From an uncultured Bacteroidota bacterium (lineage in GTDB: Bacteria > Bacteroidota > Bacteroidia > Bacteroidales > GWA2-32-17), in the NCBI GenBank assembly GCA_903837285.1, contig CAILUD010000189.1, forward strand, positions 1 through 36,469: 36,469 nt of DNA, read 5' to 3'. Below the pieces are notes generated by a model, which ran no database searches, was not told the origin of the DNA, and was given only the letters and a program-made list of their open reading frames with translations. Shown here piece by piece: positions 21,559-30,034 of this stretch; within the stretch, counting starts at the first letter, position 1, and the number at the start of each line of letters is the position of its first letter. Made by a program: the position numbers and the translations under genes.

Positions 21559-21704
21559 AGCATTAACCAATACTTTTAAAAAATCAGCAACAAATTATTT
21601 AAGCCGATTTACAAAACGGAATTTATATTGCAAATTAAAATTCAAAGGGGGATCGAAAAAAAGTAAACTTCTTATTTAAAAGTAAATCGATTTTTTAAAA
21701 TAAA
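21559..21704. other. A/T-rich spacer with a second CAAAGGG...AGTAAACTTC copy
   Basis: No gene seen. CAAAGGGGGATCG at 21643-21655 followed by AGTAAACTTC (21660-21669) echoes CAAAGGGAGTAAACTTCG at 21291-21309, so related sequence flanks the small lipoprotein gene. Confidence 0.4.
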
Positions 21705-21735
21705 TTTGCATATTAAAAATTCCTGCATATATTTG
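21705..21735 (+). promoter_or_regulatory. Promoter of the histidine operon
   Basis: -33 TTTG (21705-21708) and -7 TATATTTG (21728-21735) are exact consensus matches with 19 bases between them. The predicted transcript begins about 21742, a dozen bases before the leader peptide ATG, so the leader and attenuator are in the transcript. Confidence 0.8.
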
Positions 21736-21754
21736 CACCAAGATTTAATAAATA

Positions 21755-21808
21755 ATGAACAATCAATTACATCATCGTCATTTTAATACTGGCTATCAGG
21801 CGAGGTAG
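21755..21808 (+). CDS. Histidine operon leader peptide
   Basis: A 17-codon reading frame, MNNQLHHRHFNTGYQAR, with three His codons in a four-codon stretch (CAT CAT CGT CAT, 21770-21781). It sits between the consensus promoter and a rho-independent terminator upstream of hisG. A cluster of codons for the end product in a short leader is the hallmark of ribosome-mediated attenuation: when charged tRNA-His is scarce the ribosome stalls there. The peptide itself is presumably non-functional and short-lived. Confidence 0.85.
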   Translation: MNNQLHHRHFNTGYQAR

Positions 21809-21869
21809 AAATGATATATGTAATTTAAAATATTTCAAAAACCCGTCTGAGTAAACAGACGGGTTTTTT
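21797..21869 (+). promoter_or_regulatory. Transcription attenuator of the his operon (antiterminator and terminator)
   Basis: Terminator: ACCCGTCTG (21841-21849) pairs with CAGACGGGT (21856-21864) around AGTAAA, followed by a T run to 21869. Competing arm: CAGGCG-A-GG (21797-21805), inside the last leader codons, can pair with CCCGTCTG (21842-21849) with one G-U pair and one bulge. A ribosome stalled at the His codons ending 21781 leaves this arm free, so the terminator cannot form; a ribosome reaching the TAG at 21806 covers it and the terminator forms. This is classical attenuation logic inferred from complementarity. Confidence 0.8.
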
Positions 21870-21916
21870 GTTTTCTAAATCTCCCCATAGTTTATTCAGA
21901 CACAAAAAAAGAAAAA

Positions 21917-22774
21917 ATGAGTAAACTGAAAATTGCAATTCAAAAAAGCGGAAGGTTAAGCGAGAAATCACTCGAGCTTCTCAAAGAATGTGGTATAAAA
22001 CTTTCTAACGGAGATAGGAAATTAAAATCTATTGCTAAAAATTTTCCAATTGAAATTTTGTTTCTCCGCGACGATGATATTCCACAGTATGTAGAGCAAG
22101 GAGTTTCTGATATCGGAATACTCGGAGAAAATGAGGTTTGGGAAAAAGATAAAAATGTAAATATTGTTGAAAAACTCGGTTTCGCTTCGTGCAAGCTTTC
22201 TTTGGCTATCCCAAAAGATGAAAATTATACAGGAGTATCATATTTCAATAATAAAAAGGTAGCCACTAGTTATCCGAAAATCCTGAAGAATTATTTTGAT
22301 CAGAATAACATAAATGCCGAAATTGAAGAGATAGGTGGCAGCGTGGAAATAGCTCCTGGGATAGGTCTCGCAAATGCCATTTTTGACATTGTAAGTACTG
22401 GAAGTACTCTTCTTATGAATGGTCTTAAAGAAGTGGAACTCGTAACCAAAAGCGAGGCAGTTATGATTTCCAACAAGAATCTTAGTGAAAAAAAACAACA
22501 GATACTAAATAAACTTCTTTTTAGAATAAGAGCAGTAAGAAATTCATCAGAGAATAAATACATACTGTTGAATGCACCAAATTCAGCTATAAAACAAATT
22601 ACTGCAATTCTTCCAGGCATGAAATCGCCCACTATTTTACCTTTAGCCGAGAACGGATGGAGCAGTTTACACTCTGTTGTTAAAGAAGATGAATTCTGGG
22701 ATATTATCGATCAGCTGAAAGCTCTTGGAGCGCAGGGAATACTGGTTGTTCCTATAGAAAAAATGGTGTTATAA
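21917..22774 (+). CDS. hisG: ATP phosphoribosyltransferase (long form)
   Basis: First enzyme of histidine synthesis: joins ATP and PRPP to form phosphoribosyl-ATP. 285 residues, the long form carrying a C-terminal ACT-like regulatory domain (about 210-285), so no HisZ partner is expected and feedback inhibition by histidine is likely. The PRPP-binding segment is IAPGIGLANAIFDIVSTGSTL; the N-terminus KIAIQKSGRLSEKSLELL matches the catalytic domain. First structural gene after the attenuator. Confidence 0.96.
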   Translation: MSKLKIAIQKSGRLSEKSLELLKECGIKLSNGDRKLKSIAKNFPIEILFLRDDDIPQYVEQGVSDIGILGENEVWEKDKNVNIVEKLGFASCKLSLAIPKDENYTGVSYFNNKKVATSYPKILKNYFDQNNINAEIEEIGGSVEIAPGIGLANAIFDIVSTGSTLLMNGLKEVELVTKSEAVMISNKNLSEKKQQILNKLLFRIRAVRNSSENKYILLNAPNSAIKQITAILPGMKSPTILPLAENGWSSLHSVVKEDEFWDIIDQLKALGAQGILVVPIEKMVL

Positions 22775-22790
22775 TTTAATTCCAAACAAT

Positions 22791-24071
22791 ATGAAATATA
22801 TATTAAATCCAGACAAAAAAGATTGGTTAAAATTAACTAAGCGGCCTGAAATTAAATTAGACAAACTATATAATATAGTAAATACTGTATTTGATGATAT
22901 AAAAAAAAACGGAGACAATGCAGTAAAAAAATATACAAAAGAGTTTGATAATGCAAATTTGAGAACCCTATCTGTAAACAATATAGCTATAACAAATTCT
23001 ACTAATAAACTTGCAAAAGAACTAAAAGCAGCAATACTACTTGCAAAAAATAATATAGAGAAATTTCACTCTTCGCAAATAGAAAAATCCAAAATTATTG
23101 AAACAACAAAAGGAGTAATCTGCTGGCGCGAAAACAGGGCCATTGAAAAAGTAGGAATCTATATTCCAGGCGGAACAGCTCCTTTATTTTCAACAGTTTT
23201 AATGTTAGCAATACCTGCAAAACTTGCGGGATGTAAAGAAATTATTCTATGCACTCCTCCAAATAAAAAAGGAGAAATTAATCCGGCTATCTTATACACA
23301 GCTAGCCTTGTAGGTGTAACTTCAATCTACAGTGTAGGTGGAATACAAGCTATTGCTGCCATGACTTTTGGCACACAAACTATTCCCAAAGTAGATAAAA
23401 TTTTCGGTCCTGGAAACCAGTTTGTAACAGCAGCCAAACAAATGGCCCAGAATTTCGGTGTAGCCATAGACATGCCTGCAGGTCCAAGTGAAGTGCTTGT
23501 TGTTGCTGACAAAACATCCAACCCTGCATTTGTTGCTGCAGATTTGTTATCGCAGGCTGAGCATGGGGAAGATAGTCAAGTAATACTTTTATCAAACGAT
23601 GAAAACGTAATTGAAAAAACATTAACCGAACTAAAAAAACAGGTAAAGCTTTTACCTCGTAGGGAAGTTGCTGAAAAAGCATTAAAAAACAGTCGCGCTT
23701 TTGTTTTAAAATCTTTAAAAGAATGCATTGAGTTTAGTAATCTTTATGCACCTGAACATTTGATTCTTGCAATTAAAAACTCCAAAGAACTTATTCCGTT
23801 AATTTCAAATGCAGGATCAGTTTTTCTTGGAAACTACAGTTGTGAAAGTGCAGGCGACTATGCCAGTGGAACAAATCACACACTTCCTACAAATGGTTAC
23901 TCTAAAAACTATAGTGGAGTTTCTTTAGATAGTTTTGTTAAAAAGATTACTTTTCAAGAACTAACTAAAGAAGGAATAAAAAAAATAGGTCCTTCTATAG
24001 AATTAATGGCTGATGCAGAACAATTATTTGCTCATAAAAATGCTGTAACAATACGTTTAAAAACAATCTGA
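22791..24071 (+). CDS. hisD: Histidinol dehydrogenase
   Basis: Zn-dependent enzyme that makes histidine from histidinol in two NAD-linked oxidations. 426 residues. The family signature spans GPGNQFVTAAKQMA to AIDMPAGPSEVLVVAD; zinc and catalytic residues are visible in LLSQAEHGEDSQ, APEHL, DYASGTNHTLPTNG and the C-terminal LFAHKNAV. Starts 16 bases after hisG. Confidence 0.97.
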   Translation: MKYILNPDKKDWLKLTKRPEIKLDKLYNIVNTVFDDIKKNGDNAVKKYTKEFDNANLRTLSVNNIAITNSTNKLAKELKAAILLAKNNIEKFHSSQIEKSKIIETTKGVICWRENRAIEKVGIYIPGGTAPLFSTVLMLAIPAKLAGCKEIILCTPPNKKGEINPAILYTASLVGVTSIYSVGGIQAIAAMTFGTQTIPKVDKIFGPGNQFVTAAKQMAQNFGVAIDMPAGPSEVLVVADKTSNPAFVAADLLSQAEHGEDSQVILLSNDENVIEKTLTELKKQVKLLPRREVAEKALKNSRAFVLKSLKECIEFSNLYAPEHLILAIKNSKELIPLISNAGSVFLGNYSCESAGDYASGTNHTLPTNGYSKNYSGVSLDSFVKKITFQELTKEGIKKIGPSIELMADAEQLFAHKNAVTIRLKTI

Positions 24072-24072
24072 T

Positions 24073-25098
24073 ATGTTTTATTTAAATAAAATAGTACGAA
24101 GAAATATTCTGGCACTTAAGCCGTATTCAAGTGCAAGAGATGAGTTCTCAGGAAAAGAAGGAGTTTTTCTGGATGCAAACGAAAATCCATTTGGTATTCT
24201 TAATAGATATCCTGACCCACACCAAAAAGAACTTAAGAAAAAACTTAGTGAGGTAAAAGCGATACCTGTTGAAAATATTTTTATAGGAAATGGAAGCGAT
24301 GAAGTAATAGATATTGTTTTCAGAACCTTTTGTAATCCGGGAAAAGATAAGGCACTAACTTTTTCACCTACATATGGGATGTATGAAGTTTCTGCTGGAA
24401 TTAATGATGCGGAACTAATTACTATTTCATTAAATTCATCTTTCCAAATTGATTTTAATGATCTAGGAAAATACTTAAATGACGATAATTTAAAACTTAT
24501 TTTTGTATGTTCTCCAAATAATCCTACAGCTAACAATATATCCAAAGTAGAGCAAATTCTCGAAAATTTTAAAGGAATTGTTATACTTGATGAAGCCTAT
24601 AATGATTTTAGTTCCAATGGTTCTTTCCTTAAAAATCTTGAAAAATATCCGAACTTAATAATCTCACAAACATTCAGTAAAGCATGGGCACTTGCAGGTG
24701 CAAGGGTAGGGATTGCATATGCAAGCTCAGAAATTATTTCTTTATTTAATAAAGTAAAACCTCCATATAATGTAAGCGAACTAAACCAGAAGGCAGCAAT
24801 TAATGCACTTATAAATATTGAAGAATTCGAAACTAAAAAAGCGCTAATTCTTAAACAAAAAAATATTTTAGAACAAGAACTAAAAAGCCTTGATATAATT
24901 AAAAAAATCTATCCTTCAGATGCAAATTTCTTTTTAGTTGAAACTTCTAATGCCGATAAGATTTATAATGAACTTGTAAAACAGAAAGTAATAACTAGAA
25001 ATAGAAGTTCAATGGTAAAAAACTGTATCAGAATAACTGTTGGAACTCCAGAAGAAAACTGTAAATTAGTAAATGCATTAAAAAATATAACCTTATGA
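24073..25098 (+). CDS. hisC: Histidinol-phosphate aminotransferase
   Basis: PLP-dependent fold-type I aminotransferase that moves an amino group from glutamate to imidazole-acetol phosphate. 341 residues. Substrate/PLP residues: [33 protein letters not shown] and the Schiff-base lysine K203 in [15 protein letters not shown]. The start lies 1 base after the hisD stop, and the 3' end overlaps hisB by 4 bases (ATGA), consistent with translational coupling. Confidence 0.96.
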
Positions 25099-26186
25099 AA
25101 AAAGTTCTATTCATAGACAGAGATGGCACATTGGTTTTGGAACCTCCTTTTGATTTTCAGCTGGACAGTTTAGAAAAACTAGAGTTTTACCCTGGTGTTT
25201 TTCAATATCTGTCAAGGATTGCAAAAGAACTAGATTACATATTAGTTATGGTTACAAATCAAGATGGACTAGGAACTTCATCATTTCCTGAAGATACATT
25301 TTGGCCAACTCAAAATAAAATAATTAATTCATTTAAAAATGAAGGTATAGTTTTTTCAGAAATTCTTATCGATAGATCCTTCCCAAAAGATAACTTACCT
25401 ACACGCAAACCAGGAACTGCATTGCTTACACAATACATAAAAGGTAATTATGATTTATCTAACTCATTTGTTATAGGTGATCGACTAACTGACGTTCAAC
25501 TTGCAAAAAATTTGGGTTGTAAAGCAATTTTTATTAGTAATGACAAATGCGAAGACTCTATATTATCAACAACAAACTGGGCTGATATATATAAAATGCT
25601 CAAAGCAGAACCCCGAAAAGCAAAAGTGACAAGAAAAACTTCCGAAACTGATATTGAAATTGAACTAAACCTCGACGGTACGGGCATTAGCTCCATCTCA
25701 ACAGGGCTAGGATTTTTTGATCACATGCTGGAACAAATTGCAAAACATGGCAATATAGATCTTAATATTAAAGTAACTGGAGATCTTCAAATTGACGAAC
25801 ACCATACTATTGAAGATGTTGGCATTGCTCTTGGGGAAGCTTTTAATATTTCTCTTGGAAGTAAAAAAGGAATTGAAAGATATGGTTTTCTTTTACCTAT
25901 GGACGATTGTTTAGCTCAGATTGCAATCGATTTTGGAGGCAGACCATGGCTTGTTTGGGATGCCGATTTTAAACGCGAAAAAATTGGTGAAATGCCAACA
26001 GAAATGTTTTTACATTTTTTTAAATCATTCAGCGATAATGCAAAATGTAATTTAAATATTAAAGCCGAGGGAGAAAATGAACACCATAAAATTGAAGCTA
26101 TATTTAAAGCCTTTGCTAAAGCAATAAAGATGGCTGTGAGTAAAACAAATAATTATTCAATTCCTACAACAAAGGGCACCTTATGA
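25095..26186 (+). CDS. hisB: Bifunctional histidinol-phosphatase / imidazoleglycerol-phosphate dehydratase
   Basis: 363 residues, a fusion. The N-terminal HAD phosphatase (about 1-165) has DRDGT (nucleophile D8, acid D10), VTNQDGLGT and [14 protein letters not shown]. The C-terminal dehydratase (about 175-363) has [33 protein letters not shown] and [16 protein letters not shown], which bind Mn. In the phosphatase, the region that holds zinc-binding Cys/His in the E. coli enzyme reads [18 protein letters not shown] and has no Cys or His. Overlaps hisC and hisH by 4 bases each. Confidence 0.96.
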
Positions 26187-26761
26187 TAGCAATTTTAAAA
26201 TATAATGCGGGCAACATAAAATCAGTAGAGAATGCTGTGAAACGATTAGGTTTCAAATGTGTTGTTACCGATAACGAAAATGAAATAAGAAATGCCGAGA
26301 AAGTTATAATTCCGGGAGTGGGCGAAGCAGGTTCTGCTATGAATTATCTCAAAAAGTATAACCTAGACACACTGATAAAATCATTAATTCAGCCGGTACT
26401 GGGTATTTGCCTTGGTCAACAATTAATGTGCTCATTTACAGAAGAAGGAAATACTGAATGTCTTAGAATTTTCGAAACACAAGTAAAGAAATTTCCTCCT
26501 AAGGAACTTGTTCCACACATGGGTTGGAACAATTTACAAAATATAAAAGGAAATTTGTTCAAAAACATTAACGAAAATGATAATCTATATTTTGTGCATA
26601 GTTATTATTGCGAAATATCAGAAAACACAACTGCTACCTGCGATTATATTCTACCATTTAGTGCATCAATGCAAAAAAATAATTTTTATGCAACTCAGTT
26701 TCATCCCGAGAAATCATCTTTAATTGGCGAACAAATTTTAAAAAACTTTTTATCTTTATGA
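26183..26761 (+). CDS. hisH: Imidazole glycerol phosphate synthase, glutamine amidotransferase subunit
   Basis: Class I glutaminase supplying ammonia to HisF. 192 residues. The nucleophile is C76 in GICLGQQLM; the His-Glu of the triad are in TQFHPEKSS near the C-terminus; the oxyanion region is [12 protein letters not shown]. Overlaps hisB and hisA by 4 bases each. Confidence 0.96.
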
Positions 26762-27471
26762 GAATAATTCCTGCTATAGATATAATTAACGGCAAATGTG
26801 TTAGACTTACCAAGGGCAATTACAATACTCAAATAATTTATAATGAGGACCCCTTGGAAGTAGCAAAAGAATTTGAAGATAATGGTATAAAATTTTTACA
26901 CCTTGTTGATCTAGATGGAGCTAAATCAAAGCACATTGTTAATTTTAAAATACTGAACCTGATAACATTGTATACAAATCTGAAGGTGGATTTTGGTGGT
27001 GGTTTAAAAAGCAATATTGACCTGCAGATTGCTTTTGAGAACGGTGCTTCACAAATTACAGGTGGAAGTATAGCTGCATCGAATCCTGCTCTTTTTCTTG
27101 AATGGCTTAAAGTTTATGGTGCAGAAAAAATAATTCTGGGTGCAGATTGCTATAACCGGAAAATAGCTACTCATGGCTGGCAAAAAAGCTCAGAACTGGA
27201 TGTACTGGAGTATATTTCTGAATATGAAAACAAAGGAATTAAATATGTTATTTGTACAGATATTTCTAAAGATGGAATGTTACTAGGGGCATCGGTGGAT
27301 TTGTACGACGAAATTAAACGGGAAACAAATATAAACCTTATTGCAAGCGGTGGAGTTTCATCAATCAGTGATTTGATAAAATTAAAAGAAACAGGTTGCG
27401 AAGGTGCCATTATAGGTAAAGCTATTTATGAAAAGAGAATTAGTTTAAAAGAATTACGTGAATTATGTTAA
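26758..27471 (+). CDS. hisA: Phosphoribosylformimino-5-aminoimidazole carboxamide ribotide isomerase
   Basis: TIM-barrel isomerase (Amadori rearrangement of ProFAR). 237 residues. Catalytic Asp8 in [15 protein letters not shown] and the second Asp in [13 protein letters not shown]; phosphate-binding glycines in VDFGGGLKS and [13 protein letters not shown]. Overlaps hisH by 4 bases and hisF by 7. Confidence 0.96.
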
Positions 27472-28217
27472 AAAAACGAATCATCCCTTGCCTAGATATT
27501 AAGGACGGTCGAACTGTGAAAGGAATAAATTTTATTGATATCCGTGATGCTGGAGATCCGGTTGAACTTGGAAAAAAATATGCACTTGAAGGGGCCGATG
27601 AACTGGTGTTTTTAGATATAACGGCTACAATTGAAAAACGCAAAACACTTTCCTTACTTGTTGAAAAGATTTCCCGCGAAATTAATATTCCCTTTACCGT
27701 TGGTGGTGGAATAAATTCACTCGAAGATATTTCTGTTATTATAAAAGCCGGTGCCGATAAGGTAAGTATAAATTCTTCTGCTGTAAAACGACCAGAGCTA
27801 ATTTCAGAAATCGCCAACCAGTATGGAAGTCAGTGTGTGGTGGTAGCAGTGGACACAAAATTCGAAAGCAACGAGTGGATGGTGTATGTGAGCGGAGGTA
27901 AGATTCCAACAACAATACGCACCATGGATTGGGTAAGAAAAGTAGAAAAATTAGGAGCAGGAGAAATTCTTCTTACCTCAATGAACAACGATGGCACTAA
28001 AAACGGCTTTGCTATTGATATTACAATGGAAGTGAGCAGTGCATTAAATATTCCTGTGATTGCTTCAGGTGGTGCCGGAACAAAAGAACATTTTAAAGAA
28101 GTGTTTGAGCAGACTAAAGCAAGCGGAGCACTAGCCGCCAGTATTTTTCACTATGGCGAAATTCCAATAACAGAATTAAAAAACTATTTAAAAACTCAAA
28201 AAATACTCGTACGATGA
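27465..28217 (+). CDS. hisF: Imidazole glycerol phosphate synthase, cyclase subunit
   Basis: TIM-barrel partner of HisH that closes the imidazole ring and releases AICAR. 250 residues. The key aspartates D11 ([14 protein letters not shown]) and D130 (VVVAVDTKF) are kept when aligned by eye with the Thermotoga enzyme; phosphate sites are TVGGGINS and [25 protein letters not shown] has Asn where many HisF have Asp (position 174), not one of the two key catalytic residues. Overlaps hisA and hisIE. Confidence 0.96.
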
Positions 28218-28813
28218 CAATCGATTTTACAAAAAACAACGGCCTTGTGCCTGTTATTATTCAAGACTATCTTAATCTCCAGGTTTTAATGCTTGGTTAT
28301 ATGAATGAAGAAGCATTTCAGAAAACACAAAAGGAATTAAAAGTTACTTTTTTTAGTCGCAGTAAAAACCGTTTGTGGACCAAAGGCGAAACCTCCGGCA
28401 ATTTTCTTCTGGTAAAAGATATGAAAATTGATTGTGACAACGATACATTGCTTATTAAAGTCCAGCCTATTGGCCCGACCTGTCATAAAGGAACAACTTC
28501 CTGTTTTGATGAAGAAACATCAAAAGGTTTTTTATATGTGCTACAGCAGACCATTGAACAGCGTATAGAAGATAACGACGAAAATTCGTATACCAACAAA
28601 TTATTTAAACGCGGCATTAACAAAGTAGCTCAGAAAGTAGGAGAAGAAGCCATAGAACTGGTTATTGAAGCGAAAGACAATAACGAAGAACTATTTAAAA
28701 ACGAAGCAGCTGATTTACTATATCATTTCTTAATTTTATTAAGATCTAAAAATACTATGCTCGAAGATGTTGAGGGAATTTTAAAGAAAAGAGCAGAAAG
28801 TTCAAAAAGATAA
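28214..28813 (+). CDS. hisIE: Bifunctional phosphoribosyl-AMP cyclohydrolase / phosphoribosyl-ATP pyrophosphatase
   Basis: 199 residues, a fusion catalysing steps 2 and 3. N-terminal HisI (1-about 105): [23 protein letters not shown] and [11 protein letters not shown], giving Mg and Zn ligands. C-terminal HisE (about 110-199): [15 protein letters not shown] and [17 protein letters not shown], the MazG-like metal site. Last gene of the operon; overlaps hisF by 4 bases. Confidence 0.96.
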
Positions 28814-28832: not shown

Positions 28833-28840
28833 TATTTTTG
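28833..28840 (+). promoter_or_regulatory. -7 box for the ATP-grasp gene
   Basis: TATTTTTG is an exact TAnnTTTG match 31 bases before the ATG at 28871. A TTG inside it (28838) is in frame with the gene but is better explained as promoter. No clear -33 element. Confidence 0.45.
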
Positions 28841-28870
28841 AATCATTTTAAACAAAATTTAATACAGTCA

Positions 28871-30034
28871 ATGTTTTTAATAGATAAACCCTACGTTTCC
28901 GACTTTTTAATAAAGACTTTAAAAGACAATAATTTTCCAGTAATCTCTACCCAAAATGCAAGAGAATTAATGCCAGAGGAAGCATTGAACTGGATTTCAG
29001 AAGAAGAAGCAATTGCAATTATTAACAATGTACCAAATACTTCTCTTTATTTAAATTCTGAAAATGGTACTGCATGGATTTACAATAACCTTGGTTCATC
29101 TGCTAAAGCAAAACATAGCAGTATTTTTAAAGACAAATTCAGATTCAGAGAATTATTAAAAGATTCTTTTCCTGATTTATTTTATAAGGTTGTTACAATT
29201 GAAGAAATTCAAAAATTAAGCCTGTATGGTATTCACTTCCCATTTGTTATAAAGCCATCAGTGGGATTTTTCAGCATTGGGGTTTATACTATACACAATT
29301 TACAAGAATGGGAAATTACAAAAAAAGAACTGAAATATGAAAATCTGCAAACAATTTACCCGAAAGAAGTATTAAACACATCTTCCTTTATTATTGAAGG
29401 TTATATAAAGGGTGAAGAATATGCTGTAGATTGTTATTTCAACAATATTGGAGAAGTTGTAATTTTAAATATTCTTCATCACAAGTTTTCATCAAGTTCT
29501 GACATCAACGATAGGGTTTATACCACTTCTAAAGAAATTATATTAAACTACAAACAATTGATTGAGGAGTTTTTGCAAACAATAAGCAATAAAACAGGTT
29601 TAAGAAATTTTCCGGCTCACGTAGAATTAAGAATTGATGACACCGGCCGTATCTGTCCTATTGAGGTAAACCCTTTACGTTTTGGTGGAATATGCAGCAC
29701 AGGCGACTTAACATGGCATGCATACGGAATTAATTCATATGAATATTTTATGCTAAATAAAAACCCTGATTGGGAAAATATTTTTGCAACCAGAAACAAT
29801 AAAAAGTATAGTAACATTGTACTAAATAATAATTCCGGATTTGCCCCATCAGAGATCAAACATTTCGATTATGATCTTTTGACAAAAGAATTTGAAAATA
29901 TTTTAGAATTAAGAAAAATGGATATTATCAAATATGGAGTATTTGGATTTATTTTCACCGAAACAAGCCCTGAAAATGAAGAAGAACTTAATAATATTCT
30001 GATTTCAGATTTAAAGAAATATATTACAGTTTAA
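28871..30034 (+). CDS. ATP-grasp domain protein
   Basis: 387 residues from ATG 28871. An ATP-grasp ligase fold is visible: the lysine strand PFVIKPSVGFFSIGVY, the IIEGYIKGEEYAVDCYF nucleotide-binding strand, and the metal-binding HVELRIDDTGRICPIEVNPLRFGG. Such enzymes activate a carboxylate with ATP and join it to an amine or thiol; the substrate is not identifiable. It lies 57 bases after hisIE on the same strand, but a -7 box between them suggests independent transcription, with possible read-through. An in-frame TTG at 28838 would add 11 residues and falls within the promoter box. Confidence 0.8.
   Translation: MFLIDKPYVSDFLIKTLKDNNFPVISTQNARELMPEEALNWISEEEAIAIINNVPNTSLYLNSENGTAWIYNNLGSSAKAKHSSIFKDKFRFRELLKDSFPDLFYKVVTIEEIQKLSLYGIHFPFVIKPSVGFFSIGVYTIHNLQEWEITKKELKYENLQTIYPKEVLNTSSFIIEGYIKGEEYAVDCYFNNIGEVVILNILHHKFSSSSDINDRVYTTSKEIILNYKQLIEEFLQTISNKTGLRNFPAHVELRIDDTGRICPIEVNPLRFGGICSTGDLTWHAYGINSYEYFMLNKNPDWENIFATRNNKKYSNIVLNNNSGFAPSEIKHFDYDLLTKEFENILELRKMDIIKYGVFGFIFTETSPENEEELNNILISDLKKYITV

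Follow-up and report, generated by a model that had tools for sequence, protein, structure and literature searches.

The window analysed here, a 36,469-nucleotide stretch of DNA from an uncultured Bacteroidota bacterium (contig CAILUD010000189.1 of assembly GCA_903837285.1), carries a histidine operon preceded by a short reading frame rich in His codons and by a terminator, and it raises the question of whether a leader peptide controls this operon and whether such control ends with transcription. In the Proteobacteria the his attenuator (Rfam His_leader, RF00514) consists of a His-rich leader peptide, an antiterminator and a terminator located 5' of hisG. An initial annotation had read the locus as a compact attenuator with a single competing arm.

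The his operon and its source genome

The leader is followed by a complete his operon in the order hisG-hisD-hisC-hisB-hisH-hisA-hisF-hisIE; the coordinates of these genes and of the leader elements are collected in Table 1. The gene after hisIE (28838-30034) gave only weak NCBIfam matches, which are ligase-like and read as the ATP-grasp kind, all of them far under the cut-offs.

Table 1. Features of the his leader and operon in the window
Feature	Positions	Strand	Remarks
Promoter, TTTG-N19-TATATTTG	21705-21735 (TTTG 21705-21708; TATATTTG 21728-21735)	+	spacer of exactly 19 nt
Leader ORF, MNNQLHHRHFNTGYQAR	21757-21810	+	17 codons, ATG...TAG; His codons 21772-21777 and 21781-21783
Arm A, 5' half of hairpin with His codons	21765-21784	+	MFE fold; moderate comparative support
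Arm 2 (putative antiterminator), CAGGCGAGG	21797-21805	+	last three leader codons; duplex, pair counts, mask folding
Arm B, leader stop and following bases, predicted partner of arm A	21808-21825	+	MFE fold
Arm 3, 5' half of terminator	21837-21849	+	folding and pair counts
TGAGTAAAC, 9-nt copy of the hisG start region (21918-21926)	21848-21856	+	top of arm 3, loop, first base of arm 4
Arm 4 and U tract, 3' half of intrinsic terminator	21856-21869	+	folding and pair counts
Arm 5, AGTTTATTCAGAC	21889-21901	+	21890-21901 with 21845-21856, or 21889-21898 with 21918-21927
hisG start region, ATGAGTAAACTG, alternative partner of arm 5	21917-21928	+	start-codon hairpin folding
hisG	21917-22774	+	NCBIfam TIGR00070, 190 bits
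hisD, hisC, hisB (bifunctional), hisH, hisA, hisF, hisIE	22791-28813	+	NCBIfam matches

The source genome (G000) contains the full operon, and a HisG match was found in none of the nine genomes of the same genus or family that were searched (G001-G009). PF00800 (prephenate dehydratase) and PF04715 (the TrpE N-domain) likewise gave no match in the source genome, and retention or gain of his alone would be of interest. No second copy of the locus stands out there either, the RNA model R1, which spans arm 3 to arm 5, scoring the locus with 72.3 bits and the next match with 42.8. A match of the DNA search in the same genome (C229, 7049-7117) proved on inspection to be an ordinary terminator 3' of another gene. 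The model also gave matches in 120 of 296 genomes of the phylum at E<=0.01; these are judged to be mostly generic low-scoring terminators and were not counted as relatives.

Loci compared

The hisG loci were taken from the order (n = 30, the window included as L014), from the class (n = 65, with 19 more) and from named genomes picked for HisG similarity (n = 80). No hisG start was found in 2/65 and 1/19 of the class loci, which left 191 usable upstream regions; the sets overlap slightly, L015/L039 and L022/L057 being identical records. A leader was counted where an ORF with at least three His in six residues was present upstream of hisG. For the duplex comparisons 83 leaders were reduced to 63 non-redundant ones, with the exclusion of L028 and L090, in which the wrong terminator had been picked.

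Promoter and leader peptide

The sequence at the 5' end of the locus fits the consensus of promoters of the Bacteroidota type. Enough upstream sequence was available for 157 of the 161 loci with both leader and terminator, and 129 of them have TAnnTTTG in the 75 nt that precede the leader ORF, compared with 5.3% of shuffles; the same motif together with TTTG 18-21 nt further upstream was found in 42, compared with 0.03%.

Three His in six residues were reached by 11 of 1000 shuffles of the window's own upstream region. A His-run leader was found upstream of hisG in 171 of the 191 usable regions, the window included, against 1.7% of shuffles, and under the stricter rule of four His in six residues in 151 regions, against 0.2%. 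The samples contributed 24/30 (order), 57/65 and 18/19 (class) and 72/80 (named genomes); leader and terminator together occurred in 22/30, 50/65, 17/19 and 72/80, that is, in 161 of 194 locus entries. The consensus promoter and the 17-codon leader with His codons that the initial annotation had described are present where it placed them, and the comparison of hisG upstream regions in relatives that it had proposed shows both the promoter motif and the His-run leader to be common.

The His run of the window (21772-21783) reads HHRH, many relatives having HHHH or longer, which may represent a weakened run or a peculiarity of the lineage. A further group of five loci (L215, L216, L223, L235 and L252, family f53) has His-rich leader ORFs upstream of hisG, no intrinsic terminator recognised and an hisG start that is apparently TTG or GTG; control in this group is possibly translation-only or Rho-dependent.

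Terminator and antiterminator

The predicted terminator consists of a stem (21837-21849/21856-21868) closed by the loop 21850-21855 and followed by T, with an energy of -19.4 kcal/mol. The fold of the whole leader gave z = -6.4, none of 200 shuffles being equally stable. Arm 2 can form eight pairs with 21842-21849, one of them G.U (21800-21846), A21803 remaining unpaired and the duplex energy being -7.7. When the RNA was folded to 21858, with arm 4 incomplete, a ribosome mask to 21794 (His codons) gave about 8.9 pairs between arms 2 and 3 and a mask to 21820 (stop codon) gave none; with no ribosome, 7.7 such pairs still form. Once arm 4 is present the terminator prevails in every ribosome state in these foldings. 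Known attenuators likewise have a terminator that is favoured by energy in the full RNA. Since the full RNA always favours the terminator, the attenuation decision would be kinetic.

In 36 of 63 leaders no more than 5 of 100 shuffles equalled the pairing of arm 2. An arm 2:3 duplex of -7 kcal/mol or stronger is present in 125 of 161 loci; measured from the last base of the stop codon, arm 2 ended there at a median of 2 nt before it and arm 3 began at a median of 31 nt after it, both figures being without shuffle control. Leaders often end in QAR or QAS, which agrees with the location of arm 2 in their final codons.

A second hairpin, absent from the initial annotation, is predicted between arms A and B, and its stem encloses arm 2. 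In 31 of the 63 non-redundant leaders no more than 5 of 100 shuffles equalled the A:B pairing, the figure for the window itself being 9 of 100, which gives moderate support to a possible protector or pause hairpin.

An amino-acid-rich leader ORF, an intrinsic terminator and a coverable antiterminator arm, the last recognised by folding and comparison, are all present, and leader-peptide transcription attenuation, taken alone as a first layer of control, is very probable in this his operon. When charged tRNA-His is scarce, the ribosome would stall at the His codons and leave arm 2 free; arms 2 and 3 would then pair, the terminator would not be formed in time and RNA polymerase would continue. 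A ribosome at the stop codon would cover arm 2, and arms 3 and 4 would form the terminator.

The strong terminator of the initial annotation was recovered with coordinates that had been right within a few bases, its competing arm was found, with eight pairs, and the geometry that it had proposed is reproduced by the masks, arm 2:3 forming at a His-codon stall and not with the ribosome at the stop codon. Its reading of the locus as a ribosome-mediated his attenuator in the Bacteroidota gains from the conserved leader, His run, terminator and antiterminator arm, but the words "compact, single-competitor" are not supported: the His codons can also pair past the leader stop, and an arm downstream of the terminator has two alternative partners.

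An arm with two predicted partners

This arm, arm 5, is placed 3' of the U tract, 15 nt before hisG, and does not figure in the initial annotation. In the window it can form 12 pairs with arm 3 and the loop, one of them G.U (-13.7), or it can pair with the hisG start (-8.2); TGAGTAAAC is present in the terminator and also in the hisG start, ATGAGTAAACTG. Folding of the read-through RNA predicted pairing of arm 5 with the hisG start (21918-21927) instead of arm 3 and the loop, and never showed arm 5 captured by arm 3 and the loop. The energies were -27.6 for the terminator with closed start, -13.7 for captured arm 5 and -15.9 for arm 2:3 with closed start. Equilibrium therefore favours the OFF state, and the ON state would need kinetics or the help of a ribosome, namely an initiating one.

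Among the relatives, the duplex of arm 5 with arm 3 and the loop had a median of -14.4 kcal/mol compared with -5.9 for shuffles, and at most 5 of 100 shuffles reached it in 47 of 63 leaders. For the pairing with the hisG start, no more than 5 of 100 shuffles did as well in 29 of 62 leaders, and no more than 10 of 200 in 48 of 80 arm-5 loci; in three loci whose hisG begins ATGGAAAAA (L106, L108 and L110) it was at chance (105, 105 and 72 of 200 shuffles). Similarity between loop and start was weaker still, with 19 of 62 leaders at 5 of 100 shuffles or fewer and with 56 of 5000 permutations reaching it.

A hairpin over the start codon is predicted in the window and, with a mean pairing probability of AUG above 0.5, in 35 of 47 leaders. 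The other 12 had probabilities of 0.5 or less (L036, L040, L044, L065, L072, L075, L081, L086, L087, L099, L106 and L114), although the MFE structures of L114 and L099 do contain the hairpin. In 67 of 79 loci the paired part of arm 5 ends 13-19 nt from the hisG ATG, most commonly 15, and this distance is kept while the spacer before arm 5 is variable. The Ser codon AGT at codon 2 of hisG (68/69) was considered as specific support and rejected, hisG genes without arm 5 being alike (9/11).

Comparative evidence for the pairings

Covariation was measured on an alignment (A1) of 47 of the 63 leaders (Table 2), 14 without evident arm 5 being excluded together with L112 (arm 5 at 5/100) and L015, so that the covariation sets are selected for the presence of arm 5. 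Most of these 14 have other terminator types, but L052, L060 and L069 have the same terminator core.

Table 2. Four pairings on the 47 aligned leaders; the last two columns give the number of 500 shuffles that reached the observed count
Pairing	Paired	Covariation	Covariation, shuffled	Shuffles reaching covariation	Both-side changes	Further pair types
Terminator	95.4%	0.225	0.136	0/500	168/500	128/500
Arm 2:3	90.0%	0.096	0.072	0/500	185/500	493/500
Arm 5:arm 3+loop	91.7%	0.248	0.171	0/500	157/500	36/500
Arm 5:hisG start	85.7%	0.148	0.107	0/500	113/500	30/500

For both arm-5 pairings none of 500 shuffles reached the observed percentage paired or the covariation score, and for the terminator and arm 2:3 at most one shuffle did so in either measure. 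Sliding the partner by 1-3 columns lowered both arm-5 pairings to 19-42% paired. On sequence evidence, the leader, the arms and the four pairings stand above their shuffle and slide controls. The stricter measures, which count both-side changes and further pair types and which the pair counter itself describes as giving the fewest false positives, fail to convince.

Permutation of partners among 46 loci (L081 also being excluded; one further analysis used 44 of the 47, with three more excluded) gave 453 +/- 4.3 pairs between arm 5 and arm 3 with the loop, compared with 490 observed, and 337 +/- 3.3 pairs between arm 5 and the hisG start, compared with 353 observed; none of 5000 permutations reached the observed number in either case. 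Because relatedness can mimic a covariation signal, a HisG tree of 69 of 79 arm-5 loci (HisG of at least 180 aa) was used to draw independent pairs. In these contrasts both pairs with arm 3 and the loop were kept in 36 of 55, compared with 10 of 55 when partners were swapped. The corresponding figures for the hisG start were 16 of 34 and 4 of 34, 18 of the 34 changes losing at least one pairing, and for loop-start identity 7 and 1; the sites are linked, so that summed contrasts do not equal the number of independent events.

Individual loci illustrate the kind of change involved. In L114 three elements differ together, with ATGACTAAAATC in hisG, ACTAAAATC in the loop and GATTTTAGTTT in arm 5 (start pairing reached by 4 of 100 shuffles), and in L099 the corresponding sequences are ATGAATACATTA, GAGTACATC and GATGTACTC (1 of 100). 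In several loci GTTTG in the terminator arm is matched by CAAAC in arm 5.

Distribution of arm 5

With a threshold of at most 4 of 200 shuffles, arm 5 was counted in 3/30 loci of the order (window included), 7/65 and 8/19 of the class and 62/80 of the named genomes. The terminator core that accompanies it is mainly CGTCTGAGT/CGTTTGAGT, and the records in which it was seen include some named Flavobacterium, Empedobacter, Planktosalinus, Polaribacter and Seramator. In many other Bacteroidia the terminator is of the AAGGCTTACC kind and arm 5 is absent. Arm 5 is a feature of one leader subtype.

Leader ORFs rich in Phe and Tyr (e.g. YYFFFYFF) or containing WWW were observed in other Bacteroidia upstream of pheA and trpE (L254-L289), most of them followed by a terminator. 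When the rules were kept loose, 11 of 16 pheA loci and 15 of 20 trpE loci showed a leader, several being doubtful (e.g. L259, L266, L271 and L286) and the trpE count omitting 10 weaker PF04715 loci (L290-L299). No arm-5-like element was evident in the listed pheA and trpE leaders, where the pairing with arm 3 and the loop was never stronger than -8.9 kcal/mol (without shuffle control); L268 had a start pairing of -17.8, but its start codon is probably misplaced.

A second layer and its alternatives

In the Bacteroidota, initiation of translation takes place largely without Shine-Dalgarno pairing. The two partners of arm 5 would be mutually exclusive, and in the arm-5 subtype only they may form a second layer of control. 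Where the terminator has formed and polymerase escapes, arm 3 would be locked in the hairpin and arm 5 would close the hisG start. Where the terminator is prevented, arm 5, which emerges before hisG, would be captured by arm 3 and the loop, the free loop serving as toehold, and hisG would be translatable. We infer ribosome stalling as the trigger, the order of events and the direction of the second layer.

A leader-peptide his attenuator in which both layers act together, with transcription and translation as its two outputs, is on balance the reading to which we incline, by a modest degree. It is tempting to speculate further, with chances that we put at nearly even, that the terminator carries a decoy copy of the hisG start, that the one downstream arm picks either the decoy or the real start codon, and that the transcriptional decision would in this way be passed on to the translation of the same molecule. 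The weak stricter counts and the chance-level start pairing in L106, L108 and L110 speak against the second layer.

The same weak stricter counts, together with a hisG-start pairing that is itself weak in many loci, would be expected if the leader attenuated transcription only, arm 5 being a by-product or having an unrelated role, such as mRNA stability or processing, and resembling the complement of the hisG start only incidentally. In the samples from order and class, most his loci combine a leader with a terminator and have no arm 5 detected, which indicates that the first layer works alone, and the pheA and trpE leaders inspected (without shuffle control) showed no comparable arm. Both arm-5 pairings, however, exceed shuffles and swapped partners, independent contrasts included, and arm 5 stays 13-19 nt from the hisG ATG in 67 of 79 loci despite the variable spacer that precedes it; we consider control of transcription only to be rather unlikely.

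The direction of the second layer could also be the opposite one: the helix of arm 5 with arm 3 and the loop, standing upstream of hisG, would block initiation when the leader ribosome does not stall, and pairing of arms 2 and 3 would keep arm 5 free. The upstream edge of the ribosome's footprint lies near 15 nt from the ATG. This helix lies about as far from the ATG, near that edge, and it is stronger and better conserved than the pairing of arm 5 with the hisG start; the opposite sign leaves unexplained the hisG-start contrasts (16/34 vs 4/34) and the AUG hairpin predicted in 35 of 47 leaders, and it is regarded as improbable. The repeats GTCTGAGTAAAC and GTTTATTCAGAC form an inverted repeat, though an imperfect one, between promoter and hisG. 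That a histidine-dependent repressor uses them as its DNA operator is scarcely credible, as across lineages their sequence varies and their complementarity is largely kept, which is expected of RNA pairing and not of a protein-binding site, and as a His-rich leader and terminator work without a repressor.

Attenuation with both layers, the reading set out at the beginning of this section, would have several consequences. If the first layer is real, leader-peptide attenuation would be a common his-operon control across the Bacteroidia, though no Rfam family matches the leader, and ribosomes in the Bacteroidota would have to trail RNA polymerase closely enough to steer transcription. The second layer, if real, would be a simple means to silence leaky read-through.

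Comparison with known systems

Lopatovskaya et al., in 2010, reportedly may have predicted attenuators in the Bacteroidetes. No Rfam family matched anywhere in the window at the gathering threshold, and RF00514 was not among the 33 Rfam matches with E<=10 for 21690-21960; nor was any T-box family among the matches of the window at the gathering threshold or of 21690-21960 at E<=10. Matches below threshold were taken as leads only. With the proteobacterial his attenuator the present leader shares a His-rich peptide, an antiterminator and a terminator, all placed before hisG; it differs in giving no match to the Rfam model and in having the additional arm 5.

Closer in phylum is Bacteroid-trp (RF01692, from Weinberg et al. 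2010, PMC2864571, as far as the available part of that source goes), by its Rfam description a leader-peptide RNA of Bacteroidetes, which differs in being concerned with tryptophan; the window scored 26.2 bits against its model, below the gathering score of 49. In Flavobacterium psychrophilum, hisG was reported in 2021 among the genes with conserved 5' elements, with no Rfam hit, and clues to leader-peptide attenuation upstream of amino-acid operons were mentioned (PMC9723704, in its accessible part). Gene and phylum are those of the present case, and the accessible text of that report gives no leader sequence, arms or second layer. The 5' UTRs of B. thetaiotaomicron include short ORFs reminiscent of attenuating leader peptides (PMC7366714, in its accessible part). 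No his attenuator of the Bacteroidota beyond that of PMC9723704, and no description of the arm-5 layer, was found in the accessible parts of the literature searched, which consisted mostly of papers free of subscription. Leader-peptide attenuation at this locus is well supported, yet it is not new in kind, RF01692 and the hisG element of PMC9723704 being its Bacteroidetes precedents.

The second layer has its nearest likeness in Bacillus subtilis. In the yxjB leader (PMC6851288, 2019, in its accessible part) a leader ribosome stalled by tylosin prevents both termination and translational repression; a terminator is common to both cases, stalling on a leader peptide and a hairpin over the initiation site are predicted for the present one as well, and the differences lie in the stalling agent, the organism and the element covered, there the Shine-Dalgarno sequence and here, as predicted, the start codon itself, with amino-acid codons in place of the antibiotic. 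Folding predicts a hairpin of the yxjB type over the start of the first gene for the window and for 35 of 47 relatives; in other loci it is weak or absent, and the stricter covariation counts for it are weak. The vmlR leader (PMC9226507, 2022, in its accessible part) likewise combines attenuation of transcription and of translation by a ribosome stalled on an upstream ORF, the gene there conferring antibiotic resistance and the ribosome being stalled by an antibiotic. If the proposed second layer is correct, it would be the amino-acid counterpart of these two-layer antibiotic leaders of Bacillus, and it would use a mimic of the start codon in place of Shine-Dalgarno masking.
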